Source: an uncultured Gammaproteobacteria bacterium (GTDB lineage Bacteria > Pseudomonadota > Gammaproteobacteria > PS1 > Pseudothioglobaceae). Taken from it: a stretch of DNA of 39,273 nucleotides. Below, piece after piece: positions 13,076 to 37,037 of the stretch. Location: positions 1 through 39,273 of the forward strand of contig CAJWTP010000009.1 in the NCBI GenBank assembly GCA_913047325.1, read 5' to 3'. The notes beneath the pieces were generated by a model that made no database searches, was not told the DNA's origin, and saw only the letters and a program-made list of their open reading frames with translations. Position 1 is the stretch's first letter, and the number at the start of each line of letters is the position of its first letter. Made by a program: the position numbers and the translations under genes.

Positions 13076-13087
13076 CAACCTACTGTG

Positions 13088-16331: not shown

Positions 16332-16407
16332 TATTGTGTGCTTGATATTTTCCCAGTAAAAAAAGTATAAATCAAATTCACTAATGAAGTGAGTAGATTT
16401 GCAATAT

Positions 16408-16440
16408 CGACAGTCTGCCGACAGTAGATAAGTATATTAT
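16408..16440 (+). promoter_or_regulatory. Candidate TctD-binding direct repeats and -10 box of the tct operon
   Basis: CGACAGT occurs at 16408-16414 and again at 16419-16425, 11 bp start to start, about one helical turn. A TATTAT -10-like box lies at 16435-16440. The repeats therefore cover the -35 region, where no good -35 hexamer is seen. That is the classic layout for activation by an OmpR-family regulator. Confidence 0.5.
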
Positions 16441-16503
16441 GGCTTTATTAATATGAATTAATATTTGATTAATCTTTATAATCTTTCTATCATGGGCGCC
16501 TGG

Positions 16504-17601: not shown

Positions 17602-17775
17602 CTTTAATAATGTATAAATTACCCCTCTAAGAAAAAATTTTATCGCCTGACAGTTTTATGACAGGATGAAGGATTATTATCTATCTCGTCTTATAGATTA
17701 ATAGTTAACCAAAGTATTAATTTTTTTGACTTTCTTCCTAATGTTGGGAAGGAATAATTATAGGAGAGACATATT

Positions 17776-18756: not shown

Positions 18757-18783
18757 GATTATTGTAAAAAGGGAGAAAGGTGA

Positions 18784-19248
18784 GTGACTATTAACTATAC
18801 ACGTATAAGTGCACTCATCTTTCTCCTTTTATTTCTTGTTTATTCTTATCTAGCTGGTGAAATTGAAGTTTTTGTCTTTGATGAAGACGCTGACTTTAAT
18901 GCAAGAACGTTTCCTAAGTTTATTTCCTATCTTGGTATCGTCGTCTCTTTTTTGACTTTAGTTTTATCCAAAAACGAAAATGAGAAACTTGGTCAATATG
19001 AATGGCTAAAAGTCTTCGTTTTGTTTGTCTTAGTTTTTACCTATGGCATTATTATCAAATCGGTTGGATTCTTTTTATCTACTAACCTATTCCTATTAGT
19101 TTCTTATTATTATTTAGGTGTTCGTAGTTACAAAACTTTATTGCTTTGTTCATTCCCCGTTGTAGCCGGCTTGCAATTTATGTTGCATGGATTACTAGAC
19201 GTTTATATACGTGACCCTTTTCTTCAATTTCTAGGAGTGATTTCATGA
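18784..19248 (+). CDS. tctB: Tripartite tricarboxylate transporter small membrane subunit TctB
   Basis: 154 residues starting at GTG, with gggag eight to ten bases upstream. Four hydrophobic segments are visible (about 8-22, 42-58, 76-92 and 100-140, the last probably double), as expected for TctB. Segment 1 is followed by an acidic external stretch (EIEVFVFDEDADFNARTFP) that contains the TctB-type ARTFP sequence. The stop overlaps the tctA ATG by four bases. It forms the membrane complex with TctA. Confidence 0.87.
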   Translation: MTINYTRISALIFLLLFLVYSYLAGEIEVFVFDEDADFNARTFPKFISYLGIVVSFLTLVLSKNENEKLGQYEWLKVFVLFVLVFTYGIIIKSVGFFLSTNLFLLVSYYYLGVRSYKTLLLCSFPVVAGLQFMLHGLLDVYIRDPFLQFLGVIS

Positions 19249-20753
19249 TCGAAGGAATACTGATTGGTATCGATACCGCCTTCAGCGGCTATAACATTAT
19301 TATGGTCATGATGGGTTGCTTTGCCGGCACTATTATTGGTATGTTGCCGGGTCTCGGTCCTATGTCAGCAATAGCGCTCATGATACCTATCACTTATGGA
19401 TTTGATCCTGCTTCGGCCATGATACTAATGGCGGGTGTCTACTATGGCGCAATTTTTGGTGGATCAACATCCTCTATCCTTATTAATGCTCCTGGAGTTG
19501 CAGGTACAGTTTCAAGTTCTTTTGATGGTTACCCGATGGCTAAAAATGGTCAGGCAGGGAAGGCATTGGCTATAGCGGCTTACGCCTCTTTCTCTGGTGG
19601 TACGATTGCTGCACTATTTTTATTAGTTGCTGCCCCTCAACTGGCAAGGGTAAGTTTAAGTTTTCAGTCGGCCGATTACTTTGCTCTTATGTGTGTTGGC
19701 CTTTTATCAATCGCTGCATTCGCTAGCAAAGGGCAATTCCTAAAGGCCATGATTATGACCATGTTTGGATTGGCATTGGCAACTGTTGGACAGGACTCAT
19801 TGTCTGACATTACTCGATTTCATTTTGGCAATATCAACTTGATGGATGGGATTAGTTTCGTTTTACTGGTAATGGCAACCTTTGCCATGAGCGAAGCATT
19901 TATGATTATATTTAAAAAGATGGATATTAGTTTTTCAGCCTCTGACGTTAGTAAAGAAAAATTAGGGTCTATTAAATTATCCAAAGAAGAGGTTAAGGAA
20001 ATGGTTCCGGTCGTTGGTCGGACATCTGTACTTGGTTTCTTGGTGGGTGTGTTGCCAGGAGCAGGAGCTACAATTGCGAGCTTCTTAGCTTGGGGTTTTG
20101 AGAGAAGCATAGCCTCAGCAAAAGAAAAATTAAAGTTTGGCAAAGGCTCGATTAAAGGTCTAACAGCACCTGAAACGGCAAATAACGCTGCCTGTACTGG
20201 GTCTTTTGTACCTCTTTTAACTCTAGGTATTCCGGGCTCGGGAACGACCGCTGTTATGTTAGGCGCGTTGTTGTCTTTCGGAGTTCAGCCAGGGCCAAGA
20301 CTCTACATTGAACAGCCTGAGCTTTTCTGGGCTGTTATTGTTTCTATGTACATTGGTAACGTCGTTTTATTGGTCTTGAACTTACCTCTGATTCCTTATA
20401 TTGCCCGTATATTGGCGATTCCTAAAAACATTTTAGTGCCTTTGGTTTTGTTTTTCTCTGTTACCGGGGTTTATTTGATTTCATTTAATGCTTTTGATAT
20501 CTATTTTATGGCCATTGTAGCCCTACTTTCGCTTGTTCTTAGGATTTTAAACTATCCTATGCCGCCATTAATATTGGGTTTTATTTTGGGCGGAATGATA
20601 GAGAAAAATTTACGCCGAGCTTTGTTGATTAATGACGGATCTTTTTCATTTATGTGGGAGAGGCCGATCAGTCTTGCCTTATTTGTTATTATGATTTTGA
20701 TTGTTTTACTGCAAATATATCAAGGACTACGAAAAGAAGAAAAACAGAATTAA
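19245..20753 (+). CDS. tctA: Tripartite tricarboxylate transporter large membrane subunit TctA
   Basis: 502 residues and about a dozen membrane helices. Conserved family stretches are present: GTIIGMLPGLGPMSAIALMIP (about 29-49), YYGAIFGGSTSSILINAPG, GVLPGAGATIASFLAWGFE, and PETANNAACTGSFVPLLTLGIPGSGTTA (in two adjoining pieces). The two PGLG/PGAG signature regions are the hallmark of TctA. It is translationally coupled to tctB and is the last transporter gene, followed by a small NTF2-like gene after 75 bp. It carries the substrate inward, presumably driven by an ion gradient. Regulation by TctDE is inferred from the divergent layout. Confidence 0.95.
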   Translation: MIEGILIGIDTAFSGYNIIMVMMGCFAGTIIGMLPGLGPMSAIALMIPITYGFDPASAMILMAGVYYGAIFGGSTSSILINAPGVAGTVSSSFDGYPMAKNGQAGKALAIAAYASFSGGTIAALFLLVAAPQLARVSLSFQSADYFALMCVGLLSIAAFASKGQFLKAMIMTMFGLALATVGQDSLSDITRFHFGNINLMDGISFVLLVMATFAMSEAFMIIFKKMDISFSASDVSKEKLGSIKLSKEEVKEMVPVVGRTSVLGFLVGVLPGAGATIASFLAWGFERSIASAKEKLKFGKGSIKGLTAPETANNAACTGSFVPLLTLGIPGSGTTAVMLGALLSFGVQPGPRLYIEQPELFWAVIVSMYIGNVVLLVLNLPLIPYIARILAIPKNILVPLVLFFSVTGVYLISFNAFDIYFMAIVALLSLVLRILNYPMPPLILGFILGGMIEKNLRRALLINDGSFSFMWERPISLALFVIMILIVLLQIYQGLRKEEKQN

Positions 20754-21287: not shown

Positions 21288-22712
21288 TCACTGATTTATC
21301 CATTCTGTATGGAAATAATCGCCCCTAGGCTTGTCTATACGTTCATAACTATGAGTGCCAAAGTAATCTCTTTGAGCTTGCAGCAGGTTAGCAGGTAATT
21401 TGGCAGAGCGATATCCATCGAAATAGCATAGAGATGATGTCATAGCAGGAACGGGAACTCCATTAATTAGAGCGAGCGAAGCGATTCGACGCCATCCCTC
21501 TTGACAGGCTTTTATTTTGTCGTTGAAAAATGGGTCGAGCAAGAGGTTTTTTGTATCTGGATTATTATCATAGGCGGCTTTAATTTTGTTTAAGAAAGCT
21601 GAACGGATAATACACCCGCCACGCCACATCATAGCAATAGCGCCATAGTTAAGTTTCCAGTTGTATTGTTTCGCTGCCTCGGAGAGGAGGGTATAGCCTT
21701 GGGCATAAGAAACAATTTTTGAGGCATAAAGCGCATCATGAATGTCATTAAGAGTTTGAGTTTTATTTCCTTTAAATCTGGCGCTAGAATTGCTAAACAA
21801 CTTTGACGCTTCGACTCGTTCCTGTTTGATAGTGGACAGGAATCTAGAGAAAACCGCTTCCCCGATCAAAGTCAGCGGAGTGCCGAGTTCAAGTGCGGCT
21901 TCTGCGGTCCATTTGCCGGTCCCTTTTTGCTCGGCAGTATCAAGAATATTATCAATTAGCGGGCTACCGTCTTTATCTTTAAAGGCCAAAATGTCAGCGG
22001 TAATTTCAATCAGATAACTACTCAAATCACCCTTATTCCATTGTTTAAAGACCTGGTGCATTTCATCATTTGTCATCTCCAGTACATCTTTCATTATTTG
22101 GTACGCTTCACATATCAATTGCATATCGCCGTACTCAATGCCGTTGTGCACCATTTTGACAAAATGTCCTGAACCATCCCCGCCTATCCAGTCGCAGCAA
22201 GGTTCATTGTTTTCTACTTTGGCTGATATTGACTGAAAGATATCTTTGACTTCAGGCCAGGCAGAAGTTGAACCGCCTGGCATAATTGAAGGTCCTTTAA
22301 GGGCTCCTTCTCCTCCTCCAGATACCCCGGCTCCGATAAAGTAAAACCCTTTTTCTTCTAGCGATTTAGATCTTCTAATTGAATCAGAATAGTGAGAGTT
22401 GCCACCATCGATGATAATATCGCCTTTGTCCAAATGGGGAATCAGTTTGTCAATATAATTATCAACAACTTTACCTGCTTTGACCATCATCATCACTTTT
22501 CGAGGTTTTTTAATGCTATTAATGAAATCAGCGATATCGGCGCAACCAACAATATTTTTTTCTTTAGCACGAATATTAGTTAAATCATCAATTTCCTTTC
22601 TAGAGCGGTTATGTACAGAAACTTGATAGCCATGACTTTCTAGGTTTAACGCCAAATTCACACCCATGACTCCTAAACCTATTAAGCCTATGTCTGATTG
22701 ATTGTTGTTCAT
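21288..22712 (-). CDS. gnd: 6-phosphogluconate dehydrogenase, decarboxylating
   Basis: 474 residues, full length for the long (E. coli-type) enzyme. It oxidises and decarboxylates 6-phosphogluconate to ribulose-5-phosphate, giving NADPH. The nucleotide site GLIGLGVMGVNLALN (9-23) and NRS (35-37) suggest NADP. Substrate and catalytic residues are present: SGG at 131-133, Lys186 and Asn190 in HFVKMVHNGIEYGD, and Glu193. Having both this and Edd (37038) gives 6-phosphogluconate two fates, the pentose phosphate and Entner-Doudoroff routes. Its upstream region carries two phased TTGNNNCAA elements (22790-22808) like those before importer 2 and gtsA, suggesting joint control. Confidence 0.97.
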   Translation of the reverse strand: MNNNQSDIGLIGLGVMGVNLALNLESHGYQVSVHNRSRKEIDDLTNIRAKEKNIVGCADIADFINSIKKPRKVMMMVKAGKVVDNYIDKLIPHLDKGDIIIDGGNSHYSDSIRRSKSLEEKGFYFIGAGVSGGGEGALKGPSIMPGGSTSAWPEVKDIFQSISAKVENNEPCCDWIGGDGSGHFVKMVHNGIEYGDMQLICEAYQIMKDVLEMTNDEMHQVFKQWNKGDLSSYLIEITADILAFKDKDGSPLIDNILDTAEQKGTGKWTAEAALELGTPLTLIGEAVFSRFLSTIKQERVEASKLFSNSSARFKGNKTQTLNDIHDALYASKIVSYAQGYTLLSEAAKQYNWKLNYGAIAMMWRGGCIIRSAFLNKIKAAYDNNPDTKNLLLDPFFNDKIKACQEGWRRIASLALINGVPVPAMTSSLCYFDGYRSAKLPANLLQAQRDYFGTHSYERIDKPRGDYFHTEWINQ

Positions 22713-22789
22713 AATTTTATTAAATGGGAGCTGCTTAAAGAGATAAATAAAATGAACTTAAAAAAGTATAAACTAGGTTATTTTTTGTT

Positions 22790-22808
22790 TTGTGTCAAAT
22801 TGTATCAA
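22790..22808. promoter_or_regulatory. Phased TTGNNNCAA array upstream of gnd (2 copies)
   Basis: TTGTGTCAA (22790-22798) and TTGTATCAA (22800-22808), one base apart and so exactly 10 bp in period. On the gnd strand they read TTGATACAA and TTGACACAA; the second contains a perfect TTGACA, with TAGTTT 17 bp further. They lie about 78 bp before the gnd start and just after the lacI-type gene. Confidence 0.6.
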
Positions 22809-22828
22809 GATATGCAGCTATTTGATTT

Positions 22829-23836
22829 TTATAGGTTTATAACGCTTTTCCTTTCAATAAGTTCAACTGGAAAATCACAGTCGACTTTCAAGTCAAGGTC
22901 GTAGCAACCATTTAATAGTCGTCTTGTCGCTGCTACTGCCATTCTGTTAAATGGAATGCGCACTGTGGTGAGGGGAGGGCTTGTATAGGTAGCTATATTC
23001 ATGTCATCATAACCCATTACTGAAATATCATTAGGCACATCTAATCCTTTGCCTGTTATTGCGGCGATAGCGGACATCGCTGATTGGTCATTTCCACAGA
23101 AAAGGGCAGTGAAGGGTTTATCTTGCTTTAATAAGTCTAGCGCACCTTCATATCCCTTTTTAAAGGTGTAATCCCCTTCAAAAATTAATTCCTCAGGGAT
23201 ATCAACATGATTGTCATTCATTGCATTCATGAATCCTTGGTGTCTCTGATTACCGTCATAAACTTTAAACCAACCAGTAATGCAAGCGATATCTCTGTGC
23301 CCCTTGTCAATCAAGTATTGTCCACAAACATAGCCAGCTTGATAGTGATCGAAATAAAAACACTTGTCATCGATTAACTCAACTCTATTGTTTAGTAATG
23401 TAATGTCAGAAAATTCATTTTCGATCTGAAGAATTTCACGCGCTGGAAGATCTGAACCCCAAATAATTATTCCGTCACAACCTTTATTGATGAGACTATC
23501 AAATGAATCTCTAGCAGCGCTAGGGTTCTGTTTGGAATTTAATTCACCATCGGAAAAAATCAAATGTACGTCGAAAGGCTTGAGTTCACTTTCAATTTTT
23601 CTTAGGGTATTTCTGTTTATTTCACCAGATGTTTCAGTGCCCCAGATGCCTATTGTATTAATCTTTTTTGATACTAATGAGCGCGCTGCGATGTTTGGTT
23701 TAAAGCTTAAAACCTCCATAGCGTGGTTTACTTTCAACAGAGTTTTGGATGAGACAGAGCCTTTTCCAGAAAGAACTCTGGAAACAGTTCCAACACCAAC
23801 TCCAGCTAACTTTGCTACATCCCTTATTGTTGCCAT
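22829..23836 (-). CDS. LacI/GalR-family transcriptional repressor
   Basis: 335 residues. The helix-turn-helix is at the very start (TIRDVAKLAGVGVGTVSRVL, 3-22). The hinge is NIAARSLVSKK, and a periplasmic-binding-protein-like effector domain follows from about residue 60, with the family sequences GYVCGQYLIDKGHRDIACITG, ALFCGNDQSA and DISVMGYDD. It is divergent from the importer 2 operon. The only palindrome of the right type, TGGAACCGGTTCCA at 23992-24005, lies just downstream of that operon's predicted start. It therefore most likely represses importer 2 and the beta-glucosidase until a sugar effector appears. It may also control itself. Confidence 0.95.
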   Translation of the reverse strand: MATIRDVAKLAGVGVGTVSRVLSGKGSVSSKTLLKVNHAMEVLSFKPNIAARSLVSKKINTIGIWGTETSGEINRNTLRKIESELKPFDVHLIFSDGELNSKQNPSAARDSFDSLINKGCDGIIIWGSDLPAREILQIENEFSDITLLNNRVELIDDKCFYFDHYQAGYVCGQYLIDKGHRDIACITGWFKVYDGNQRHQGFMNAMNDNHVDIPEELIFEGDYTFKKGYEGALDLLKQDKPFTALFCGNDQSAMSAIAAITGKGLDVPNDISVMGYDDMNIATYTSPPLTTVRIPFNRMAVAATRRLLNGCYDLDLKVDCDFPVELIERKSVINL

Positions 23837-23927
23837 AATTACTCAATTCTATTTATGGATTATAACTCATTTTGTGCTATTCTGTTGGTATATATAGGTT
23901 TTTTACTATTTATGACTATTAATCTTT

Positions 23928-23966
23928 TTGACATAATTTGACACAATTTGACACAATTTGACACAA
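23928..23966. promoter_or_regulatory. Phased TTGNNNCAA array upstream of importer 2 (4 copies)
   Basis: TTGACATAA (23928-23936) is followed by three identical TTGACACAA units (23938-23946, 23948-23956, 23958-23966), each separated by one T, giving an exact 10-bp period. Each contains TTGACA. The third unit can serve as a -35 box for TATAAA at 23970-23975 or TAAAAT at 23972-23977. The block is therefore both promoter and probable binding array. Confidence 0.65.
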
Positions 23967-23991
23967 AAGTATAAAATATTAAGGTCTAAAA

Positions 23992-24005
23992 TGGAACCGG
24001 TTCCA
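23992..24005. promoter_or_regulatory. LacI-family operator palindrome
   Basis: TGGAACCGGTTCCA is a perfect 14-bp palindrome with the central CG usual for LacI/GalR operators. It lies about ten bases after the predicted transcription start of importer 2 and 155 bp from the divergent repressor gene. Binding here would block transcription of the importer. Confidence 0.75.
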
Positions 24006-24078
24006 ATGATATTTATGTATTTGGAATTAAAGTTGTTTTAAGTAAATTTTTATAAATATATATATAGGAGAGAAACTC

Positions 24079-25323
24079 ATGTTACTTAAATGTTTTAAGA
24101 AAACTGCTCTTGTTGCAACAGCGCTATTAACTGGCATTGTCAATGTGGCATCGGCAACAGACCTTGAAGTTACACACTGGTGGACTTCAGGCGGGGAAGC
24201 CGCTGCTGTCGCTGAATTTGCCAAGGCATTCAACTCAACAGGTCATAATTGGGTTGATGGAGCTATCGCTGGATCTGGTGGTGTAGCGAGACCAATCATT
24301 ATCAGTAGAATCATTGGCGGTGAGCCAATGGGCGCGACACAACTTAACCACGGTCGTCAGGCTGAAGAGTTAATCGAAGCAGGTTTGCTTTTGGATTTGA
24401 CTGATGTTGCTGAAGCTAACGGATGGGAGGATGTTATTTTTCCTAGCAATCTACTAGACGCATGTACTGTTGATGGTCGCGTTTATTGTGCGCCTGTGAA
24501 CATTCACTCAGCACAATGGTTGTGGCTGAGTCATGACGCGTATGAGAGTTCAGGTGTTGCTGTTCCAACAAATTGGGATGAGTTTGTGGCTGCAGGTCCT
24601 GCACTTCGTGCTAACGGTATTGTTCCTTTAGCAATGGGTCAGCAAGGCTGGCAAGTAGGTTTGGCTTTTGGTGTTTTATCTGTAGCGTTAGTCAGCGAGG
24701 ATGCTTGGTACGCTGTAAATCGTGACAAGGATGCTAAAGTCGCAGCTGGTCCTGAATATGCTCGTGTATGGAAAGCTTTTGATGATGCGCGCAAAATGGC
24801 TATTGGCTCGAATATAAGTGACTGGAATCGAGCTACCAATCTAGTAATTACTGGTAAAGCGGGTGGTCAGATCCACGGAGACTGGGCGCAAGGTGAGTTT
24901 AGCGTTGCCGGTTCAGTTGCTGGTAGGGACTATTCATGTCTTCCGGGTTTAGGAAATCGTGAAATTTTGGACACTGGAGGAGATGCGTTTTATTTCCCAG
25001 TTCAGGATGATGCTGATGTCGAAGCGGCACAAAAAGAGCTTGCTGCACTTCTGGTATCGCCAGCAGTTCAAGTGGCATTTAACCTGAAAAAAGGTTCGTT
25101 GCCAATCCGTGGTGACATCGATATGTCAACTGCGAATGATTGTATGCAGAAGGGTTTGAAGATTCTTGCAGGTGGAAATGTTCTTCCTTCAGGAGACATT
25201 CTTCTTTCACCTGATACACAGAATCAGATTCAAGAACTGATGTCAACATTTTGGAGTGACTTGTATATGAGTGCTGAGGATGCTCAAGCTAAATATGCTA
25301 AGATCATCTCAACTGCTGACTAA
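24079..25323 (+). CDS. Sugar ABC importer 2, GtsA-like periplasmic binding protein
   Basis: 414 residues. Signal peptide about 1-26 (ending ASA before TDLEV), then the family start LEVTHWWTSGGEAAAVAEF, shared with the gtsA product at 30487 (VEVLHWWTSGGEAASVNYL). Other family features are CAPVNIHSAQWLWLS, NWDEF and the later HGDWAQGEFSVAG. It is clearly a divergent paralogue of the glucose/mannose-binding GtsA. With a cytosolic beta-glucosidase gene at the end of its operon, the ligand may be a glucoside rather than free glucose; this is inference. Ribosome site taggagag is strong. Controlled by the LacI operator and the phased array upstream; a hairpin terminator follows. Confidence 0.88.
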   Translation: MLLKCFKKTALVATALLTGIVNVASATDLEVTHWWTSGGEAAAVAEFAKAFNSTGHNWVDGAIAGSGGVARPIIISRIIGGEPMGATQLNHGRQAEELIEAGLLLDLTDVAEANGWEDVIFPSNLLDACTVDGRVYCAPVNIHSAQWLWLSHDAYESSGVAVPTNWDEFVAAGPALRANGIVPLAMGQQGWQVGLAFGVLSVALVSEDAWYAVNRDKDAKVAAGPEYARVWKAFDDARKMAIGSNISDWNRATNLVITGKAGGQIHGDWAQGEFSVAGSVAGRDYSCLPGLGNREILDTGGDAFYFPVQDDADVEAAQKELAALLVSPAVQVAFNLKKGSLPIRGDIDMSTANDCMQKGLKILAGGNVLPSGDILLSPDTQNQIQELMSTFWSDLYMSAEDAQAKYAKIISTAD

Positions 25324-25338
25324 GCATTAATAAAAAAG

Positions 25339-25375
25339 ACTGTCGAGCTTATCTAGGGCTCGGCAGTTCTTCATC
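25339..25375 (+). terminator. Hairpin between importer 2 binding protein and permease genes
   Basis: Stem actgtcgagc (25339-25348) pairs with gctcggcagt (25358-25367) with one G-U pair and a 9-nt loop, followed by tcttcatct. The T-run is poor, so it is probably a partial terminator or an mRNA-stabilising end for the abundant binding-protein message. Confidence 0.6.
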
Positions 25376-25436
25376 TGATAATCCTAGTTTCTATTAAATA
25401 TTTTTTAACCATTTCTTGTAAATTATAATAATAATT

Positions 25437-26738
25437 ATGCTTACAAAAGTTCAGTCTGAAAGATTATTTGTTGGTTCAGTAGCGTTGGCCTTTGTTTCAT
25501 TGATATTAGCCACTGTTGGGATAAAATCCCAGCTATTTCAAAATATTCAGTACCTAATTCTACTTTTTTCCTCCCTTTCAGTAATTTGGATTGGATTTAA
25601 GGCTGGCAAATTTATATTTATTACGAATCGACTTCGAAAGCAAGCACTAGGCTGGCTTATTGCAGCAACATTCTCAGCAACGCTTTGGTTATTTGCTCAA
25701 AAAGATATTCAGTTAATATTTCCAGTACTTAAAGGCTATCGCAAAGTCTGGAATACATTCGAGCCTTTCGCTTTGTTCGCGACAGTTGTTTGTATTTTAT
25801 TTGCTTTAATATTGTTTATCGTTGGATCGAGAGATTCTAAATTAGTGCGCCCAGGATTTATTGAGCGCTCCCTTGTTAATAATTTGTCTAGCAAAATTGC
25901 AGCATTGCCTATGGTGTTTACTGCTATAGGTGTTTTCGTTATAGCAACCTTGTGGACGGTTTATCATTCGTTTACGAATAGCCGTATGCTTCCAAAAAGT
26001 GAGTTTGTTGGGCTTGGTCAATATGAGCGTCTCTGGAGCTCTGATCGCTGGTATATCTCGATAGAGAATCTTGCAATTTATGGGATCTGTTCGTTGATTT
26101 TTTCACTTTTTATTGGTTTTATGTTGGCGGCCTTATTAGATCAAAAAACAAGGTTTGAAAACACTTTTAGGACAATTTTTTTATACCCATTTGCTCTTAG
26201 TTTTATTGTTACTGGTTTGGTTTGGCAATGGATTCTAAATCCAGATTATGGCGTTCAGAAAATTGTTCGCTCGTTAGGGTTTGACTCCTTTGTATTTAAT
26301 CCACTCTATGATTTAGATATAGTTATTTATGGGATTTTGGTTGCTGGTCTTTGGCAGGGGACAGGTTTTATTATGTGCCTGATGCTGGCAGGTCTGCGCG
26401 GAATTGACCAGGAAATCTGGAAGGCAGCCAGAGTTGACGGTATTCCGATGTGGAAAACCTATATACGCATCGTGATTCCAATGATGCGTCCAGTTTTTAT
26501 CACAACACTTGTTATTATTGCCGCTGGAATAATTAAAGTATACGATTTGGTTGTTGCTCAAACCTCTGGTGGTCCAGGAATCTCTTCAGAGGTACCTGCA
26601 AAATATGTATACGACTATATGTTTAGCGCTCAAAATCTGGGTCAAGGCTTTGCTGCCTCTACTATGATGTTAGTGTCTGTTCTGATTGTTTTGATTCCTT
26701 TTGCCTATTTAGAGTTTGGGAGACGCAAGCATGGCTGA
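25437..26738 (+). CDS. Sugar ABC importer 2, GtsB-like permease with extra N-terminal membrane domain
   Basis: 433 residues, against about 290 for the GtsB copy at 31871. The first 150 residues are an added hydrophobic region with about four predicted helices (10-29, 37-58, 70-87 and 108-130). The ordinary permease domain starts near KIAALPMVFTAIGVFV (153-168) and continues with NSRMLPKSEFVGLGQYERLW, which matches the GtsB pattern. The EAA loop is WKAARVDGIPMWKTYIRIVI (328-347). The stop overlaps the next permease start by eight bases. It forms the channel with the next gene product. The extra domain is unexplained; it may regulate or anchor the complex. No strong ribosome site is seen before the ATG. 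Confidence 0.85.
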   Translation: MLTKVQSERLFVGSVALAFVSLILATVGIKSQLFQNIQYLILLFSSLSVIWIGFKAGKFIFITNRLRKQALGWLIAATFSATLWLFAQKDIQLIFPVLKGYRKVWNTFEPFALFATVVCILFALILFIVGSRDSKLVRPGFIERSLVNNLSSKIAALPMVFTAIGVFVIATLWTVYHSFTNSRMLPKSEFVGLGQYERLWSSDRWYISIENLAIYGICSLIFSLFIGFMLAALLDQKTRFENTFRTIFLYPFALSFIVTGLVWQWILNPDYGVQKIVRSLGFDSFVFNPLYDLDIVIYGILVAGLWQGTGFIMCLMLAGLRGIDQEIWKAARVDGIPMWKTYIRIVIPMMRPVFITTLVIIAAGIIKVYDLVVAQTSGGPGISSEVPAKYVYDYMFSAQNLGQGFAASTMMLVSVLIVLIPFAYLEFGRRKHG

Positions 26739-27639
26739 TTCTGCCGTTGTACATTCGATAGATGGACCCAGCGGGCCAAAACCACGCAAAACGCTGAGCC
26801 GCAGAAATATCATTCTTTACGGGACATTGTTCGTCGTTGCGGTATATTACCTGATTCCGCTTTATGTGATGTTGGTTACATCGGTCAAGGGTATGCCGGA
26901 AATTCGCATGGGGAATATTTTTTCATTGCCCCTTGAGATAACTTTCGAACCTTGGGTCAAAGCATGGAGTCAGGCTTGCACAGGGCTCAATTGTGACGGC
27001 TTGTCACGAGGATTCTGGAATTCAGTTAAAATCACCGTACCTTCGGTTGTTATATCGATCGCAATCGCATCAATTAATGGCTACGCTTTGGCAAACTGGC
27101 GCTTTAAGGGAGCCAATCTGTTTTTTACTATATTAATATTTGGCGCATTTATTCCTTATCAGATTATGATTTATCCACTTGTAATACTGTTACGTGATTT
27201 GGGACTTTATACAAAATTACCTGGCTTAATTCTTATTCATACTATTTTTGGAATGCCTATTTTGACACTATTATTTCGTAATTATTTCACCACCATCCCT
27301 GAAGAGCTTTTTAAAGCTGCTAGAGTCGATGGGGCCGGATTTTGGGGAATATACTTCCGCGTCATGATGCCGATGTCACTACCAATATTCGCCGTCGCTA
27401 TTGTTTTGCAGGTGACGGGTATTTGGAATGACTTTCTATTTGGAGTGATCTATACCAAGCCGGCAAACTACCCAATGACTGTTCAACTAAATAACATTGT
27501 GAACTCTGTTCTAGGGGTGAAAGAATATAACGTAAATATGGCCGCTACCTTGTTGACGGGACTGGTGCCTTTGGCCATCTATTTTATTTCAGGCAAACTC
27601 TTCGTGCGCGGTATTGCTGCCGGCGCAGTTAAAGGATAA
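26731..27639 (+). CDS. Sugar ABC importer 2, GtsC-like permease
   Basis: 302 residues from the ATG at 26731, chosen because GGGAG lies eight bases upstream; an in-frame TTG at 26716 is less likely. A 25-residue cytosolic tail rich in Pro and basic residues precedes helix 1 (IILYGTLFVVAVYYLIPLYV). The EAA loop is FKAARVDGAGFWGIYFRVMM, and the end KLFVRGIAAGAVKG is the GtsC-type C-terminus, nearly the same as the 32740 copy (KYFVRGLTAGAVKG). A CTGLNCDGL segment in the external loop parallels CTGSECEGL in that copy. Overlaps the previous gene and is followed eight bases later by the ATPase. Confidence 0.88.
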   Translation: MADSAVVHSIDGPSGPKPRKTLSRRNIILYGTLFVVAVYYLIPLYVMLVTSVKGMPEIRMGNIFSLPLEITFEPWVKAWSQACTGLNCDGLSRGFWNSVKITVPSVVISIAIASINGYALANWRFKGANLFFTILIFGAFIPYQIMIYPLVILLRDLGLYTKLPGLILIHTIFGMPILTLLFRNYFTTIPEELFKAARVDGAGFWGIYFRVMMPMSLPIFAVAIVLQVTGIWNDFLFGVIYTKPANYPMTVQLNNIVNSVLGVKEYNVNMAATLLTGLVPLAIYFISGKLFVRGIAAGAVKG

Positions 27640-27646
27640 ATAAAAA

Positions 27647-28741
27647 ATGAATAGTATAGAAATTAAAAAACTGTCTCTTAATTTTGGCGAAGTTGTGGTC
27701 CTCAAGGACCTCAATCTAACGATTGAAAAAGGAGAATTTTTGGTGCTCTTGGGAGCTTCAGGTTGCGGCAAATCAACATTGCTGAACTGCGTCGCCGGAC
27801 TCTTGGATATTACTGATGGGCAGATTTTTATCAATGGGAAAAACGTTACCTGGGATGAACCTGCGCAGAGGGGTATTGGAATGGTATTTCAATCCTATGC
27901 ACTTTATCCGCAAATGACGGTCAAGGGCAACCTGTCGTTCGGTCTGAAAAATGCAGGCCTACCAAAAGAGGAAATTGAAAAACGCGTCAAGCACGCTTCA
28001 GAGATTCTGCAGATTGAATCGCTTTTGGATCGTAAACCTGCTGCCCTGTCTGGTGGCCAACGCCAGAGAGTTGCAATAGGTCGTGCTTTGGTTCGGGATG
28101 TTGAAGTTTTTCTGTTTGATGAGCCTTTATCTAATTTGGATGCTAAGTTGCGTACTGAGCTCAGAGTCGAGATTAAGCGGCTACACCAGAAGCTCGACAA
28201 TACCATGATTTATGTGACCCATGACCAGATTGAAGCCATGACTTTGGCAGACCGAATTGCCATTATGAGAGACGGTCTCATTCAGCAATTGGATACCCCT
28301 AAGAAAATTTATAGCAATCCTGTCAACAAATACGTTGCTGGATTTATTGGTTCGCCGAGTATGAACTTCTTAAAGGGCACAATATTGCAGAATAACAAAC
28401 CCATATTTAAGTTGGAAGGGGGGTGGTGTGAATCACCTGATCTGAGTAATTACATATTTCAAGAAAGTATTAAGGCTGAAACGCAGGTTTGGTTAGGTAT
28501 ACGTCCTGAGAGTGTTGTGGTTGGAGGTGAGGCCGAAAATATGCCGGTGAACTTTAGTCTCGAAGTAGAAGTTTTTGAACCTATGGGGGCGGACACATTG
28601 GTATGGTCACAGATAGGCGGTCAGGAGTTTCGTTTTATGATTGATGGCAATACTTCAGTAAACGTTGGTGACAGAGTTACAGTTGGTTTTGACCCAGCTC
28701 ATGCGTCAATCTTTGATTTTGACAATGAGGAGCGTTTGTAA
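27647..28741 (+). CDS. Sugar ABC importer 2, MalK/GtsD-like ATPase
   Basis: 364 residues. Walker A GASGCGKST at 36-44 (Ala replaces the usual Pro), Q-loop FQSYALYP, signature LSGGQ at 134-138, Walker B FLFDEP with Asp158-Glu159, and switch His192 in VTHDQIEAM. A MalK-type regulatory domain follows from about 235, with GIRPES near 285. It powers importer 2 and starts eight bases after the permease stop. A 206-bp gap with inverted repeats separates it from the beta-glucosidase gene. Confidence 0.92.
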   Translation: MNSIEIKKLSLNFGEVVVLKDLNLTIEKGEFLVLLGASGCGKSTLLNCVAGLLDITDGQIFINGKNVTWDEPAQRGIGMVFQSYALYPQMTVKGNLSFGLKNAGLPKEEIEKRVKHASEILQIESLLDRKPAALSGGQRQRVAIGRALVRDVEVFLFDEPLSNLDAKLRTELRVEIKRLHQKLDNTMIYVTHDQIEAMTLADRIAIMRDGLIQQLDTPKKIYSNPVNKYVAGFIGSPSMNFLKGTILQNNKPIFKLEGGWCESPDLSNYIFQESIKAETQVWLGIRPESVVVGGEAENMPVNFSLEVEVFEPMGADTLVWSQIGGQEFRFMIDGNTSVNVGDRVTVGFDPAHASIFDFDNEERL

Positions 28742-28947
28742 ATATGGCTCAAGATTGATAATTAAAAGATTCAATTTGGGGTAGTGGTGACCTCCATGTA
28801 GAACTCTCCTATTGGTTTGTCCATCAAAATTGAATTTGTTAGGAGATTAACGGCTTAGCTGATGGCGACTTCTCCTGCCATCAGCAAAAGCTTTAATTGA
28901 AGTTGCTAGTGATTAAATGATAAACAACAATATATATTTTCGGAGTA
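28742..28947. other. Structured intergenic region with two inverted repeats
   Basis: Two exact inverted repeats are seen. The first is attcaattt (28769-28777) with aaattgaat (28827-28835), enclosing 49 bases. The second is gctgatggc (28858-28866) with gccatcagc (28877-28885) around a 10-base loop. The second hairpin is followed by aaaagcttt, not a good T-run, so neither is a standard terminator. They may stabilise or process the mRNA, or be a small RNA. No protein gene is seen. Confidence 0.45.
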
Positions 28948-30282
28948 ATGATGTATAAATTTCTAAAAGACTCAAAATTATGTGACCCAAAATTTCTTTT
29001 TGGGGTAGCCACCGCATCTTATCAAATTGAAGGCGCAACAAGCGTTGACGAGCGTTGTCCATCAATTTGGGATACTTTCTGTGCTAAGCCTGGTGCAGTC
29101 TACAAACAACATAACGGGGATGTCGCCTGCGATCATTACCATCTATATCAGGATGATGTTAACTTGATTGCAAGTCTGGGTATGGGTGCCTATCGCCTTT
29201 CAATAGCGTGGCCTCGAATCATCAAGTTCGATGGAAGCATTAACCAAAAAGGTCTCGATTTTTACGACCGAGTCATTAGTGCACTGGAAGAGAAAAATTT
29301 AACCATCATGGCTACGCTCTATCATTGGGACTTGCCACAATATCTAGATGACGAGGGTGGCTGGCTGAATCGGGAAACTGCCTATAAATATGCCGAATAT
29401 GTTGAAGTTGTGAGTTCATATTTTGGTGACAGAATTGATTTTTATGCCACCTTGAATGAACCATGGTGTAGCGCCTTTCATGGCTACCGTGACGGCAAGC
29501 ATGCCCCAGGAATTACAGACGATAGGTCCGCCTTTCTGGCTTCCCATAATTTACTACTAGCCCATGGTCTAGCTGTCCCCATATTAAGAAAAAATGCGCC
29601 AAGTTCCAAGCACGGTATTGTGCTTAACTTTACCCCTGCTTATCCAGCTAATGAGTCTGCCAAAGATGTCGCTGATTTTGCTGATGAATACAATCATTGG
29701 TTTATTAAGCCGATTATGGAGGGTGAATATCCCGAGAGTGTCTATCAGCACTATATTGACGTGATGCCAACTATCGAAGATGGTGATATGGGTATTATTA
29801 ACGCCAAAATTGACTTTTTGGGGGTTAATAACTATTCCCGAGGTGTAATCGATCAGGACGGCCAATATCCAAACTATAAAGAAGTTCATTTGAGTGATGT
29901 TGAGCGCACCCATATTGGCTGGGAAGTTTATCCCGAAGGGTTACTTAAGTTGCTGACAGACCTTAATCAAACCTACCAATTGCCTCCTATCTATATCACT
30001 GAAAACGGAGCCGCTGTAGATGACCAAGTTGTCGATGGTGCTGTGGAGGATGAACAGCGCTGTCGTTATTACCAGAACCATTTATCCTCTGTTGATCAGG
30101 CGATCCGTAAAGGAGTCGATATTAGGGGATATTTTGCTTGGAGCTTGATGGATAATTTTGAATGGGCTGAGGGATACAAGATGCGTTTTGGTATAGTCTA
30201 TGTTGATTATAAAACGCAGAAAAGAATACCTAAACGTAGCGCATTATGGTTTAAAGAATTTTTAGATTCCCGTCAGCAATAA
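28948..30282 (+). CDS. Glycoside hydrolase family 1 beta-glucosidase
   Basis: 444 residues, the usual size of bacterial GH1 enzymes. It removes terminal beta-linked glucose (or galactose) from short sugars with retention. Acid/base Glu171 is in TLNEPW and nucleophile Glu352 in YITENGA. Other family marks are FLFGVATASYQIEGA near the start, YHWDLPQYLDDEGGW, HNLLLAHG, and YFAWSLMDNFEWAEGY. There is no signal peptide, so it acts on imported sugars in the cytosol. Two ATGs are adjacent (28948 and 28951); cggag spacing suits the second slightly better. It sits between importer 2 and gtsABCD and links them: importer 2 may bring its substrate and its glucose product enters the downstream pathway. 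Confidence 0.95.
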   Translation: MMYKFLKDSKLCDPKFLFGVATASYQIEGATSVDERCPSIWDTFCAKPGAVYKQHNGDVACDHYHLYQDDVNLIASLGMGAYRLSIAWPRIIKFDGSINQKGLDFYDRVISALEEKNLTIMATLYHWDLPQYLDDEGGWLNRETAYKYAEYVEVVSSYFGDRIDFYATLNEPWCSAFHGYRDGKHAPGITDDRSAFLASHNLLLAHGLAVPILRKNAPSSKHGIVLNFTPAYPANESAKDVADFADEYNHWFIKPIMEGEYPESVYQHYIDVMPTIEDGDMGIINAKIDFLGVNNYSRGVIDQDGQYPNYKEVHLSDVERTHIGWEVYPEGLLKLLTDLNQTYQLPPIYITENGAAVDDQVVDGAVEDEQRCRYYQNHLSSVDQAIRKGVDIRGYFAWSLMDNFEWAEGYKMRFGIVYVDYKTQKRIPKRSALWFKEFLDSRQQ

Positions 30283-30356
30283 TTGTTTTTATTGAGCAAG
30301 ATTTCGCACACTCTTTCTTTCAATTAACTGAATAACAAGTTAAGTTATGAATTAGT

Positions 30357-30385
30357 TTGTTTCAATTTGTAACAATTTGAAACAA
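30357..30385. promoter_or_regulatory. Phased TTGNNNCAA array upstream of gtsA (3 copies)
   Basis: TTGTTTCAA (30357-30365), TTGTAACAA (30367-30375) and TTGAAACAA (30377-30385), each separated by one T, so the period is 10 bp. The whole block with one flanking base each side (30356-30386) is a near-perfect 31-bp palindrome, with mismatches only at the two linkers and the centre. No well-spaced -10 box is seen, so this is more likely a regulator array than a promoter repeat. It lies about 100 bp before gtsA. Confidence 0.65.
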
Positions 30386-30486
30386 ATCGGAACACTATGT
30401 TGCTTAACTATCAATAAACTGGAGTCTCTACTCAATGTTGGGTAGATTTGTTTCATAACTAAATATTTCAATGGAGAGAGAAAATT

Positions 30487-31743
30487 ATGAAAAATACGAT
30501 GAAAATATCAACGCTAGCGGCCACAGCGCTTCTAGCAACTACAACATCGGTAAGTGCCGGTGATGTAGAAGTTTTACACTGGTGGACTAGCGGAGGCGAA
30601 GCTGCAAGTGTAAATTACTTAAAAGACAAGTTGAGTGATGCCGGGGTTGGTTGGACTGACTTCGCTGTTGCTGGTGGTGGTGGTGAAAACGCCATGACCG
30701 TACTTAAGTCTCGCGCTATATCAGGCAACCCGCCAACTGCAGCGCAAATCAAAGGTCCATCCATTCAAGAATGGGGCGATCTTGGATTCTTAGCAGATAT
30801 CGATGGTGTTGCTAAAGCTAACGACTGGGACAACCTATTACCTGCAGTGGTTTCAGATGTAATGAAGCACGATGGTAAATATGTTGCTGCGCCAGTAAAC
30901 GTACACCGCGTTAACTGGATGTGGTCTAACCCAGAAGTATTCCGCTATGCTGGTGCAACTATCCCAACAACATGGGATGACTTTATGGTGCAAGCTGCGA
31001 AACTTGAAAAAGCTGGCTTTATTGCTCTAGCACATGGTGGACAGGCTTGGCAAGATGCAACGTTGTTTGAAGCAGTTGTACTTGGTGTAGGTGGAGCTGA
31101 TTACTACAACAGTGCCTTTGTTAGTCCGGTAGATTTAGATGTTTTGAAGAGTGACACTACAGTAGAAGTCTTCGAAACTTTCGGAAATCTACGTCAGTTT
31201 ATTGACGCTAATTCACCGGGACGTGACTGGAATGTTGCAACTTCAATGGTAATGGAAGGTAAAGCAGGTATGCAAATAATGGGCGATTGGGCAAAAGGTG
31301 AATTTAAAGTTGCCGGTATGAACGTAGGTACCGATTACGTATGTACTGCGGCACCAGGTACTTCAGGTGGCCATACTTTCAACATCGACTCATTTGCTTT
31401 CTTTGCACAGTCAGATGCTGCTAGAACTGCAGCTCAAAACACAATGGCAGCTGAAATTTTGGGTACTGATTTCCAGACAGTATTCAATCTTAATAAGGGT
31501 TCTATTCCTGCACGCCTAGGTGTGTCAAGAGCTGAGTTCGATTCATGTGCTCACGACTCAATGGATGCCTTTATTGCGGCTTCTGCCAGTGGTTCTCTAG
31601 TACCAAGCTTTGCTCACGGTATGGCAGTATCTTCAGCGGTATCAGGAGCAATTTATGATTCAGCCACAAACTTCTTCAACTCTGACCAGAGTGCGCAAGA
31701 AGGTGCTGATCAACTAGTTGCTGCGGTTGCAGCTGCAATGTAA
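30487..31743 (+). CDS. gtsA: Glucose/mannose ABC importer binding protein GtsA
   Basis: 418 residues. Signal peptide about 1-24 (ending VSA before GDVEV). The mature start VEVLHWWTSGGEAASVNYLK, the sequence FAVAGGGGENAMTVLKSRA, and PVNVHRVNWMW, MQIMGDWAKGEFKVAG and FNLNKGSIPAR are all characteristic of Pseudomonas-type glucose-binding GtsA. It captures glucose (possibly mannose) in the periplasm. It is the first gene of a long plus-strand unit reaching to glucokinase. A ribosome site (ggagagag) precedes it, the phased TTGNNNCAA array lies 100 bp upstream, and a strong hairpin follows. Glucose specificity is inferred from family and gene neighbours. Confidence 0.88.
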   Translation: MKNTMKISTLAATALLATTTSVSAGDVEVLHWWTSGGEAASVNYLKDKLSDAGVGWTDFAVAGGGGENAMTVLKSRAISGNPPTAAQIKGPSIQEWGDLGFLADIDGVAKANDWDNLLPAVVSDVMKHDGKYVAAPVNVHRVNWMWSNPEVFRYAGATIPTTWDDFMVQAAKLEKAGFIALAHGGQAWQDATLFEAVVLGVGGADYYNSAFVSPVDLDVLKSDTTVEVFETFGNLRQFIDANSPGRDWNVATSMVMEGKAGMQIMGDWAKGEFKVAGMNVGTDYVCTAAPGTSGGHTFNIDSFAFFAQSDAARTAAQNTMAAEILGTDFQTVFNLNKGSIPARLGVSRAEFDSCAHDSMDAFIAASASGSLVPSFAHGMAVSSAVSGAIYDSATNFFNSDQSAQEGADQLVAAVAAAM

Positions 31744-31812
31744 GACAAGGGGTTATGTAAGTAAATACTGATTTTTACATCTCCTTTTGTAAAGTAGATA
31801 CTTATATACACT

Positions 31813-31845
31813 TAGGGCGCCTCAATTTAGGCGCCCTATTTCATC
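31813..31845 (+). terminator. GC-rich hairpin between gtsA and gtsB
   Basis: Perfect stem tagggcgcc (31813-31821) with ggcgcccta (31830-31838) and an 8-nt loop, followed by tttcatc. The T-run is short, so it is probably a partial terminator or a 3' stabiliser that raises GtsA over the membrane subunits. Confidence 0.65.
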
Positions 31846-31870
31846 AAAAAATATTAAAATTAGTGACGCT

Positions 31871-32740
31871 GTGCTTAATTATTTAGAAAAACATTTACCA
31901 AAAATTGTATTGGCTCCAACAACAATTGTGATGATTGTTTGTATGTACGGCTTCATCGCTTGGACCGGCTTATTGTCATTAACCAAAAGCAGAATGATGC
32001 CGCAATGGGAATTTGTCGGACTTGACCAGTATGTTCGCCTGTTTGCCAATCCGCGCTGGGATGTCGCAGTTGACAATCTCTTTATTTTCCTAATATTATT
32101 TATCATCATAGCGCTCGTATTAGGCTTATTGTTGGCGATATTCCTTGACCAAAAGATTCGCGTTGAGGGCGCCATAAGAACCATCTACTTGTACCCGATG
32201 GCAATCTCTTTTATTGTTACCGGTACGGCATGGAAATGGATTCTTAATCCTGGATTGGGGATCGAAAAGCTATTCAGAGATTTAGGTTTTGCGGGGTTTG
32301 AATTTCGCTGGCTGGTAGATTCAGATATGGCAATTTATACTATTGTCATTGCAGCTGTGTGGCAGTCCAGCGGTTTTGTGATGGCTCTATTTTTAGCAGG
32401 GCTGAGGGGGGTTGACGACAACCTCACTAAGGCTGCTAAGATTGATGGCGCATCAACAGTTCGGCTTTACTGGCACATTATATTGCCATTAATGAGGCCG
32501 GTATTTTTTAGTGCCATTGTGATTCTTACCCATATCGCTATTAAAAGTTTTGATTTGGTACAAGCATTAACCGGAGGTGGGCCGGGTTATTCCTCTGATT
32601 TGCCGGCAAATTTTATGTACACCTTTTCATTTAACAGAGCACAAATCGGAATGGGTGCTGCTAGTGCAATGATTATGTTGTTCGGTGTTTTAGCCGTTCT
32701 AATCCCTTATTTATATTCTGAATTACGAGAGAAAAAATAA
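31871..32740 (+). CDS. gtsB: Glucose ABC importer permease GtsB
   Basis: 289 residues with six predicted helices. It starts at GTG 31871; an in-frame ATG at 31931 would remove part of helix 1, so the GTG is preferred despite no clear ribosome site. GtsB-type features are LPKIVLAPTTIVMIVCMYGF, VGLDQYVRLFANPRW, RTIYLYPMAISFIVTGTAWK, GLRGVDDNLTKAAKIDGAS (EAA loop) and GGGPGYSSDLPANFMY. It lacks the extra N-terminal domain of the importer 2 homologue. The last base of its stop is the first base of gtsC. It forms the membrane channel with GtsC. Confidence 0.9.
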   Translation: MLNYLEKHLPKIVLAPTTIVMIVCMYGFIAWTGLLSLTKSRMMPQWEFVGLDQYVRLFANPRWDVAVDNLFIFLILFIIIALVLGLLLAIFLDQKIRVEGAIRTIYLYPMAISFIVTGTAWKWILNPGLGIEKLFRDLGFAGFEFRWLVDSDMAIYTIVIAAVWQSSGFVMALFLAGLRGVDDNLTKAAKIDGASTVRLYWHIILPLMRPVFFSAIVILTHIAIKSFDLVQALTGGGPGYSSDLPANFMYTFSFNRAQIGMGAASAMIMLFGVLAVLIPYLYSELREKK

Positions 32741-33609
32741 TGAACCGACAAACGCCATTGAGTATTAATATCGGTCGTGTAATGATCTACCTATTGTTGG
32801 TTGCATTTGCTTTGCTTTATCTAGCTCCCTTATACGTGATGATTGCAACTTCATTCAAAGATATTGAAGAAATTCGAAGTGGTAACTTGATGGCGCCTCC
32901 CCTTAGTCCAACTTTTTATGCTTGGACAAAGGCCTGGTCATCGGCCTGTACAGGTAGTGAATGCGAAGGTTTGGCGCCGTTTTTTTGGAATAGCGTTAAA
33001 ATAGTAGTGCCGGCAGTTTCAATTTCAACAATCATTGGTGCATTTAACGGCTATGCGTTAGCAAAATGGAGATTCAAGGGCAGTGAGTTTTTATTCGGCG
33101 CTCTTCTTTTTGGTTGCTTTATCCCGTTTCAGGTAATACTCTTGCCAATGGCAAAGCTATTGGGTTCGCTAGGTTTGGCTAACACGGTTACCGGATTGGT
33201 AATGGTTCATGTTATATATGGTGTAGCTTTTACGACACTCTTTTTTCGTAATTATTACGTCGGAGTGCCGACAGAATTAGTCCGCGCAGCAAGGCTTGAC
33301 GGGGCAGGATTTTTAAACACCTTTAGGTATATTTTTCTGCCGCTTTCAACCCCCATCTTTGTAGTAACCGTGATATGGCAATTTACTCAAATATGGAACG
33401 ACTTTCTATTCGGCGTAGTTTATTCGGGCGCCGGAACTCAGCCAATAACCGTGGCGCTTAACAATCTTGTTAACACTTCTGTTGGCGGCAAAGAATACAA
33501 TGTCGATATGGCTGCAGCTATTATTGCCGCTCTACCGACACTTGTGGTATACGTGGTTGCTGGAAAATATTTTGTTAGGGGTTTGACAGCAGGAGCGGTT
33601 AAGGGATAG
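32740..33609 (+). CDS. gtsC: Glucose ABC importer permease GtsC
   Basis: 289 residues. Helix 1 (IGRVMIYLLLVAFALLYLAPLYV) is followed by the external loop with CTGSECEGL. The EAA loop is VRAARLDGAGFLNTFRYIFL, and the end is KYFVRGLTAGAVKG. It overlaps gtsB by one base (TAATG), so the two are coupled. The 89-bp gap to gtsD contains no gene, only a small gggac/gtccc pairing (33624-33628 with 33663-33667). It completes the channel of the glucose importer. Confidence 0.92.
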   Translation: MNRQTPLSINIGRVMIYLLLVAFALLYLAPLYVMIATSFKDIEEIRSGNLMAPPLSPTFYAWTKAWSSACTGSECEGLAPFFWNSVKIVVPAVSISTIIGAFNGYALAKWRFKGSEFLFGALLFGCFIPFQVILLPMAKLLGSLGLANTVTGLVMVHVIYGVAFTTLFFRNYYVGVPTELVRAARLDGAGFLNTFRYIFLPLSTPIFVVTVIWQFTQIWNDFLFGVVYSGAGTQPITVALNNLVNTSVGGKEYNVDMAAAIIAALPTLVVYVVAGKYFVRGLTAGAVKG

Positions 33610-33698
33610 TAACTTAGTATGATGGGACGGGTAAATAACAATGTATGTTAAATTTTGTGTTTGTCCCTCCATTATTTTTGCAACAATAGGATAGCGAT

Positions 33699-34793
33699 AT
33701 GGGAAGTATAAGACTTAATAAAATTAACAAATCTTTTGGCGCCACCGAGGTACTAAAAAATATTAACCTAGAGATCAGTGACGGTGAATTTTTGATATTG
33801 GTCGGACCCTCAGGTTGTGGAAAATCTACCTTGATGAATCTGATAGCTGGTCTTGAGGATATAACCAGTGGCGAAATAGTAATCGATGGCAAAGATATTT
33901 CTAGCGAGTCGCCAAAGGACAGAGATATTGCGATGGTGTTTCAATCATATGCCCTCTATCCAACTATGGATGTTGCCAGAAATATTTGTTTCGGTTTGGA
34001 AATGAGAAAGACTCCCAAGAAGGAACAAGAGGCAATACTCAAAGAGGTATCCGAAGTCCTTCAGATTGACCAACTATTAGACCGCAAGCCGGGGCAATTG
34101 TCAGGTGGACAGCGCCAGAGGGTTGCTATGGGTAGGGCCCTTGCACGGTCTCCAAAAGTTTTTTTGTTTGATGAACCGCTATCAAATTTAGATGCCAAGC
34201 TTAGGGTTGAAATGCGGACAGAGATAAAGAAGCTGCATCAACGACTCAAAACTACTATAGTTTATGTAACCCATGACCAGGTTGAGGCAATGACATTGGC
34301 AGATCGAATTGCAGTACTAAAGGATGGCGAGGTTCAGCAACTTGGCACCCCTTATGAAATATACAATGACCCTGTAAGCCACTTTGTTGCGGACTTTATG
34401 GGTTCTCCAGGAATGAACTTTATTGAATGTGTTGTCAAAGACAAAAAATTGATAATCGAGAGCTCTGGCCAGCGCTATGAATTAACAGTTCCCTGCGAAA
34501 AAGAATTGGTTGATTCTAAGCTGGACACCGTTCTTCTTGGCATCCGTCCTGAAATGCTCACTGAAGTTACACCTGAGGCTAGCAGTCCATATATCCAGGA
34601 AATCAGTTTCGACGTCCTTGTAATTGAACCAATGGGCGCAGACACCGTTGCGATTGGTGAATGGAATAACACAGAAGTGATTGCAAGACTTAACCCAGAC
34701 TCCGGCAAGCATGCCGGAAAAGAATTCAAACTTCAGGTTGACACAAGCAAAGCGGTTTTGTTTAATCCTAATTCAGGTCTACGATTGCGTTAA
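33699..34793 (+). CDS. gtsD: Glucose ABC importer ATPase GtsD (MalK family)
   Basis: 364 residues. Walker [10 protein letters not shown] at 36-44, Q-loop FQSYALYP, signature LSGGQ at 134-138, Walker B FLFDEP with Asp158-Glu159, switch His192 in VTHDQVEAM, and a regulatory domain with GIRPEM near 279-284. It drives glucose uptake with GtsABC. zwf begins only 12 bp after its stop, which ties uptake directly to glucose-6-phosphate oxidation. Most of its length aligns by eye with the importer 2 ATPase at 27647, so the two sets probably arose by duplication. Confidence 0.92.
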
Positions 34794-34805
34794 TAGAGTA
34801 AATCT

Positions 34806-36987: not shown

Positions 36988-37037
36988 ACCTAATCCCAGA
37001 AAAAATTAATAACTACATATACCAATTTTTTACAATT

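Follow-up and report, generated by a model that had tools for sequence, protein, structure and literature searches.

Three repeat arrays upstream of sugar genes in an uncultured gammaproteobacterium of the family Pseudothioglobaceae are likely to be the operators of a GltR-type response regulator encoded on the same contig, at positions 10929-11600 of the positive strand. The window, as we call the whole stretch of DNA analyzed, comprises 39,273 nucleotides of contig CAJWTP010000009.1 (GenBank assembly GCA_913047325.1). The proposed targets are gnd, which encodes 6-phosphogluconate dehydrogenase (21288-22712, negative strand; TIGR00873 above cut-off); an importer made up of a binding protein, two permeases, and an ATPase (importer 2; 24079-28741, positive strand), which is followed by a beta-glucosidase gene (28948-30282); and the gtsABCD-zwf-pgl-edd gene run (30487-38855, positive strand).

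All three arrays repeat the unit TTGNNNCAA in strict 10-bp phase. Upstream of gnd (22790-22808, negative strand) there are two units, which read TTGATACAA T TTGACACAA in the sense of the gene. Importer 2 is preceded by four (23928-23966, positive strand), the first of which, TTGACATAA, has one mismatch to TTGNNNCAA. The array upstream of gtsA (30357-30395, positive strand) consists of three units at 30357-30385, the array proper, and an additional weak unit, TCGGAACAC, at 30387-30395. The initial annotation had read the arrays in this way and considered them too regular to be due to chance, and the counts bear it out: two exact units in 10-bp phase occur five times in the window as opposed to 0.01 expected, and none of 100 shuffles reached five. 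It had also proposed a genome scan to see whether such units are concentrated at sugar genes. The source assembly (1.66 Mb in 93 contigs, 89.9% complete) contains seven exact two-unit places, five of which are the window arrays; a reversed-pattern control gave one. The remaining two lie inside open reading frames (ORFs), named by eye from their translations as kdsB-like (C3:18437) and ilvD-like (C11:22438). With up to one mismatch allowed, 16 places were found in the assembly, compared with 3 for the control. The arrays are real and are concentrated at the window's sugar genes.

The form in which the unit is conserved was evaluated in a genus sample of 29 genomes, the window's own included. 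Two exact phased TTGNNNCAA units were found in none of 13 gtsA loci and none of 9 importer-2 loci of relatives, and each of the other 28 genomes contained between 0 and 3 exact array places. The constant part of the phased repeats in the gtsA, importer-2, and gnd promoters of congeners is TTTGNNACA at 10-bp spacing, and the unit that relatives keep is a degenerate and mostly directional 10-bp direct repeat, TTTGNNACA(A/C). Within 200 bp upstream of each gene, promoters were compared with a two-unit site at ten fixed letters and the mismatches counted, and a period of 10 stood out at four genes: gtsA (0-2 mismatches in all 8 promoters), importer 2 (0-1 mismatches in 7 of 9), gnd (no mismatches in 8 of 13), and eno (0-1 mismatches in 14 of 21, with the window's own genome among the 21 and without a site). 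About 1% of first-order shuffles came to 0-1 mismatches, and about 10% to 0-2. The gtsA score covers 8 of the 13 relatives' loci, L019-L023 having been judged by eye only. In the seven cases where eno lacks a site, the gene lies close behind dnaJ.

A matrix was built from 37 sites of relatives, with the window's genome excluded; these sites were chosen by having at most two mismatches to the tandem consensus, so that the matrix leans toward it. The window's three arrays supplied its top five matches, at 27.1-29.7 bits (27.1 at gnd; 29.7, 29.7, and 27.1 at importer 2; 28.6 at gtsA), as opposed to 16.7 bits for the best of 30 shuffled windows and 14.1 for the best match elsewhere in the window. 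On the antisense strand the arrays scored 7.0 bits at importer 2, 11.5 at gnd, and 21.4 at gtsA. Since antisense scores are low at importer 2 and gnd, and less so at gtsA, the unit is a direct repeat, and its palindromic look is largely incidental. The initial annotation's view of a palindromic unit as the regulator site is therefore abandoned: relatives keep a directional direct repeat, and exact symmetric arrays are mostly gone. A palindrome-specific regulator was rejected on the same grounds, symmetric arrays not being kept in relatives. The comparison of orthologous promoters that it had named as a test gave a divided answer, with exact arrays missing from nearly all promoters and the directional form present in them.

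Across the 29 genomes, the directional pattern TTGNNACANTTTGNNACA occurred at 31 places, and a reversed control at none. Sorted by downstream gene, 30 places comprised gnd 10 (one of them 571 bp away), eno 8, importer 2 5 (two overlapping), serC 4, and gtsA 2, with further places at an oxidoreductase-like gene (1) and inside an ORF (1); the 31st is that of the window's gtsA. The eno, serC, and oxidoreductase genes were named by eye. With 1 of 31 places inside an ORF, the directional form is rare in coding DNA, where an equal abundance had been put forward as grounds for dismissing the arrays. A pattern with up to two mismatches allowed gave high numbers over the genus for matches and control alike and was not used. 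From their sequences, gnd, eno, serC, importer 2, and gtsA are apparently the targets of GltR in the genus.

The proposed reader of the arrays is an OmpR-family response regulator (10929-11600, positive strand) with a PF00486 match. Its best-scoring NCBIfam model was OmpR, at 212 bits against a cut-off of 331, and no GltR equivalog was among the NCBIfam matches listed. It is followed by a GtrS-type sensor kinase, its partner (11597-13075, positive strand; NCBIfam EnvZ model, 193 bits, below cut-off), and a sugar isomerase/epimerase-like gene (13085-14266, positive strand; NCBIfam D-mannose isomerase model, 236 bits, below cut-off). The window thus encodes an OmpR-family regulator together with a partner kinase, as expected of a GltR/GtrS regulon. 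One more OmpR/PhoB-family regulator is encoded in the window, a TctD-like protein with its kinase (14290-16331); this TctD/TctE-like pair adjoins tctCBA-like tripartite transporter genes, named by eye (14290-20753 in all).

GltR relatives are linked to gtsA. A search found 594 gtsA loci, and of the best 80, 48 were taken as GltR-linked, 47 with a regulator of at least 165 bits and L086 with one of 150 bits that the contig end truncates; ten loci whose regulators score lower (97-120 bits) were counted as unlinked. Of the 48 linked loci, 47 have the regulator upstream of gtsA and one, L091, has it downstream; in 37 the kinase gene ends less than 450 bp from gtsA. In the window itself the regulator is 19 kb upstream of gtsA. 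At the stop codon of the GtrS-type gene, and overlapping it, is a single TTTGTAACAA unit (13069-13078); this is also where the gtsA array begins in some relatives, for example L089 and L090. The unit may be a remnant that predates a move of gtsA to its position 17 kb away. Within the genus, gltR was found in 14 of the 29 genomes and a piece of gtrS in one more, G005. The pattern TTGNNACANTTTGNNACA occurred in 11 of these 15 genomes as opposed to 3 of the 14 others (Fisher p 0.009), eno arrays being found in gltR-less genomes as well. The three are G003, G015, and G024; in G003, whose contig ends 1,256 bp from gtsA, gltR may be unassembled.

The unit also matches the published binding site of GltR. 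The accessible part of a chromatin immunoprecipitation sequencing study of Pseudomonas aeruginosa gives the consensus GTNACAAA (PMC7927077). The window units have zero or one changed core letter relative to it, and relatives carry exact cores of this type (GTAACAAA, GTGACAAA, and GTCACAAA). At a 10-bp period the pattern matched seven times compared with 0.33 expected, and its 11-bp form did not match. The initial annotation had suggested a possibly undescribed regulator, a suggestion superseded by this match and by the GltR/GtrS-type pair in the window; its proposal of a shared, helically phased regulator site that joins the uptake of glucose and of glucosides to pentose-phosphate flux is supported.

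The spacing of the core differs between branches of the family. For the core GTNACA alone, which is nearly symmetric and is thus silent on direction, 75 gtsA loci were examined (L087, L096, L151, L157, and L119 excluded, the regulator of L119 being in pieces). The period peaked at 10 in the 9 nearest GltR-linked promoters (z 14.7) and in 11 further ones (z 8.6, with lesser peaks elsewhere up to 5.5), and at 11 in 14 Vibrionaceae (z 14.2) and 14 Halomonadaceae promoters (z 5.4). Where no such GltR was in view (27 loci), a period of 10 showed weakly (z 4.2). The Aliivibrio locus L106 was grouped here as Oceanospirillales-type, and the regulator tree places it with Vibrionaceae. In a threshold test at 9 of 10 letters, covering 76 of the 80 loci (L087, L096, L151, and L157 excluded), 13 of the 48 GltR-linked promoters were of the 10-bp kind and 11 of the 11-bp kind; the corresponding numbers for the 28 other promoters were 2 and 2, with 24 of neither kind. 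In the Vibrionaceae promoters (L108-L127), where the same core recurs 11 bp apart, 11 of 15 GltR-linked loci reached the threshold. In a tree of the 48 regulators, one branch (100/100) sets off each spacing, 25 unlabelled rows not being counted.

Several observations weigh against assigning the arrays to GltR as directional activator sites. The antisense score of 21.4 bits makes direction weaker in the gtsA array, clear as it is at gnd and importer 2, and the array has been lost from importer 2 of G017 and G021. Four of the 15 genomes with gltR or gtrS contain no exact directional pattern, and 24 of the 48 GltR-linked gtsA promoters fall below the 9-of-10 threshold at both 10 and 11 bp. The likeness to P. 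aeruginosa sites was judged by the published consensus, and an older study of that species, in the part available, describes GltR as a repressor with a different motif, tgGTTTTTc (PMC4081096). Finally, eno carries two-unit sites in G004, G013, G018, and G024, where neither gltR nor gtrS was found, and in G028, which is 99% complete and in which the pair was likewise not found; G004 and G028 have a single OmpR-family regulator.

These persisting eno sites are what favors another regulator as reader at eno and serC, and perhaps also at gnd, the likeness to GltR sites then being a family resemblance among OmpR-type half-sites. We consider this unlikely. Among OmpR-type proteins, the group covered here, G004 and G028 each show a core regulator only; it was found in each of the nine genomes scanned, and two of these, G001 and G026, lack arrays at both gnd and eno. 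In addition, one core letter of the G028 site is altered, and G013, G018, and G024 are 57-75% complete. The gltR-less eno sites are either relics or served by a second reader. In G028, a near-perfect inverted repeat, TGTGTCAAACTTTGACACA, also occurs in two identical copies separated by about 1.9 kb (C1:584472-584490 and 586416-586434).

With GltR as the preferred reader, the position of the arrays relative to the promoters suggests activation, because the distances from array to inferred -10 hexamer are helically phased at five promoters. In the window these hexamers are TATACT at gnd (22765-22770, negative strand; 19 bp past the array), TAAAAT at importer 2 (23987-23992, positive strand; 20 bp), and TAAACT at gtsA (30415-30420, positive strand; 29 bp past the third unit). 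Measured from the end of the promoter-proximal clear unit to the -10-like hexamer, the distance was 19 bp in all 9 array-bearing gnd promoters and in 11 of 14 at eno (18 in G012, 20 in G028, and no clear hexamer at 19 in G004), 20 bp in all 8 array-bearing importer-2 promoters, 29-30 bp in all 4 at serC, and 29 bp in all 9 aligned gtsA promoters, where a weaker unit occupies the 19-bp place. The value of -106 for the gtsA gene of G010 stems from an earlier AATAAACT, and alignment shows this promoter in the common register. As the distances differ by steps of about 10 bp, the arrays stay on the same side of the helix with respect to polymerase. Two units that end 19 bp before the inferred -10 would be centered near -41.5, a usual position of an activator. 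Regulators of the OmpR/PhoB family typically bind direct repeats spaced by one helical turn, and the unit behaves as a half-site of this type.

The same geometry bears on the proposal, after Daddaoua et al. 2014, that the arrays are GltR sites of a repressor that is freed from DNA upon phosphorylation. Repression and release are indeed what that P. aeruginosa report describes in its available part (PMC4081096), but the arrays do not overlap the inferred -10, upstream of which they are placed at phased distances, and the other report, as far as its accessible text goes, describes activation of gltB and tighter binding when GltR is phosphorylated (PMC7927077). A repressor role is quite unlikely. 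That the arrays are sites of HexR, ArcA, or a LacI-type protein is highly improbable: the metabolic context fits and the letters TTGT and ACAA recall the HexR consensus, given as TTGT-N7/8-ACAA in the available part of the source (PMC5902321), but this consensus matched twice in the window compared with 2.07 expected, neither time at an array, RpiR-type proteins do not track the arrays (G023 has arrays and no such protein was found in it, and G026 has three such proteins and no arrays), ArcA repeats are reported to be mainly 11 bp apart (PMC3798270) as opposed to the period of 10 in the genus and its nearest relatives, and the inverted-repeat operator of the LacI family is a separate palindrome at 23992-24005. 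The initial annotation, which had not recognized the element as a HexR or LacI site, is supported on this point. A second HexR-like pattern, TGTAATTWAATTACA, matched twice compared with 2.72 expected.

The LacI-type operator, TGGAACCGGTTCCA (23992-24005, positive strand), abuts the inferred -10 of importer 2 and is present in all ten orthologous importer-2 promoters compared, in three of them with one letter different. Its likely reader is a LacI-family regulator (22829-23836, negative strand), assigned to the family by a profile match and paired with the operator by inference. Because the inferred -10 abuts this conserved operator, the repressor probably adds a second, substrate-specific lock at importer 2.

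We infer the following mechanism for GltR. Each 10-bp unit (TTTGNNACA, GTNACAAA-like) would seat one winged-helix DNA-binding domain, head to tail, and two or more units would stack regulators along a single helical face. The GtrS-type kinase would be activated by a sugar signal, probably glucose-loaded GtsA, by analogy with P. aeruginosa, in which the signal is reported to require the glucose-binding protein GltB, GltR to activate the glucose-importer operon (gltB), and binding to be tighter on phosphorylation (PMC7927077). Phosphorylated GltR would then fill the array, whose edge is 19-30 bp before the -10, and recruit RNA polymerase, switching on gtsABCD-zwf-pgl-edd, gnd, and importer 2, the last also under the LacI-type operator.

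In this group of bacteria, the reach of GltR into central metabolism seems to be wider than described so far. Among the matches listed in open-licence literature, neither a GltR-type 10-bp repeat-array operator nor gnd, eno, or serC as targets was found. A broader reading, which we put forward tentatively and as a whole, is that, in this genus of gammaproteobacteria with small genomes, GltR has been promoted from regulating glucose uptake to a hub of central carbon flow, with helically phased arrays at gtsABCD-zwf-pgl-edd, the second importer, gnd, eno, and serC; that serC in three genomes may be controlled through an unrecorded small RNA or leader; and that the spacing may have been switched, to 10 bp here and 11 bp in Vibrionaceae, with the eno array outlasting GltR and either decaying or being read by a second protein.

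The serC loci in question, L168 (G006), L183 (G025), and L187 (G010), contain a candidate small RNA or serC leader about 85-90 nt past the TATAAT that follows the array. It consists of two hairpins, the second one strong, followed by 9-10 T, and is alike in the three genomes; folding z-scores were -4.9 and -4.3 for the two that were folded with shuffles, and a consensus fold was obtained for all three. In G023 (L191), serC follows the array without the candidate RNA. The window and the four serC loci gave no Rfam matches at the gathering threshold.

These results make it possible to approach glucose regulation from sequence alone in bacteria that are known mostly from assemblies, in which sites, reader, and promoter geometry become predictable. 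They bear on the dispute over P. aeruginosa GltR, a repressor binding tgGTTTTTc or an activator binding GTNACAAA, in that conservation here favors GTNACAAA and an activator geometry. The 10-bp and 11-bp spacings in two branches of one family also offer a natural system for studying how OmpR-type regulators read the spacing of repeats.

Among known systems, OmpR of E. coli binds 10-bp head-to-tail half-sites with GAAACA- or GTAACA-like cores. The arrays share this half-site layout, and OmpR is the best NCBIfam model for the window regulator; unlike OmpR, that regulator scores under the equivalog cut-off and is linked to sugar uptake. GltR/GtrS of P. aeruginosa, as described in the accessible parts of two reports, is alike in pairing an OmpR-family regulator with a kinase, in having the promoter of a glucose importer as its main target, in its GTNACAAA-like site, and in serving genes of glucose uptake and sugar breakdown (PMC7927077, PMC4081096). 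In that species the protected gltB sites span -44 to +15, and the same parts describe no repeat array (PMC7927077, PMC4081096), whereas here 10-bp arrays of at least two units precede the inferred -10, and the apparent targets include gnd and, in relatives, also eno and serC. ArcA of E. coli, an OmpR/PhoB-family regulator of carbon metabolism, is likewise reported to use two to five direct repeats in helix phase; its spacing is mainly 11 bp, as opposed to 10 bp in the window arrays (PMC3798270).

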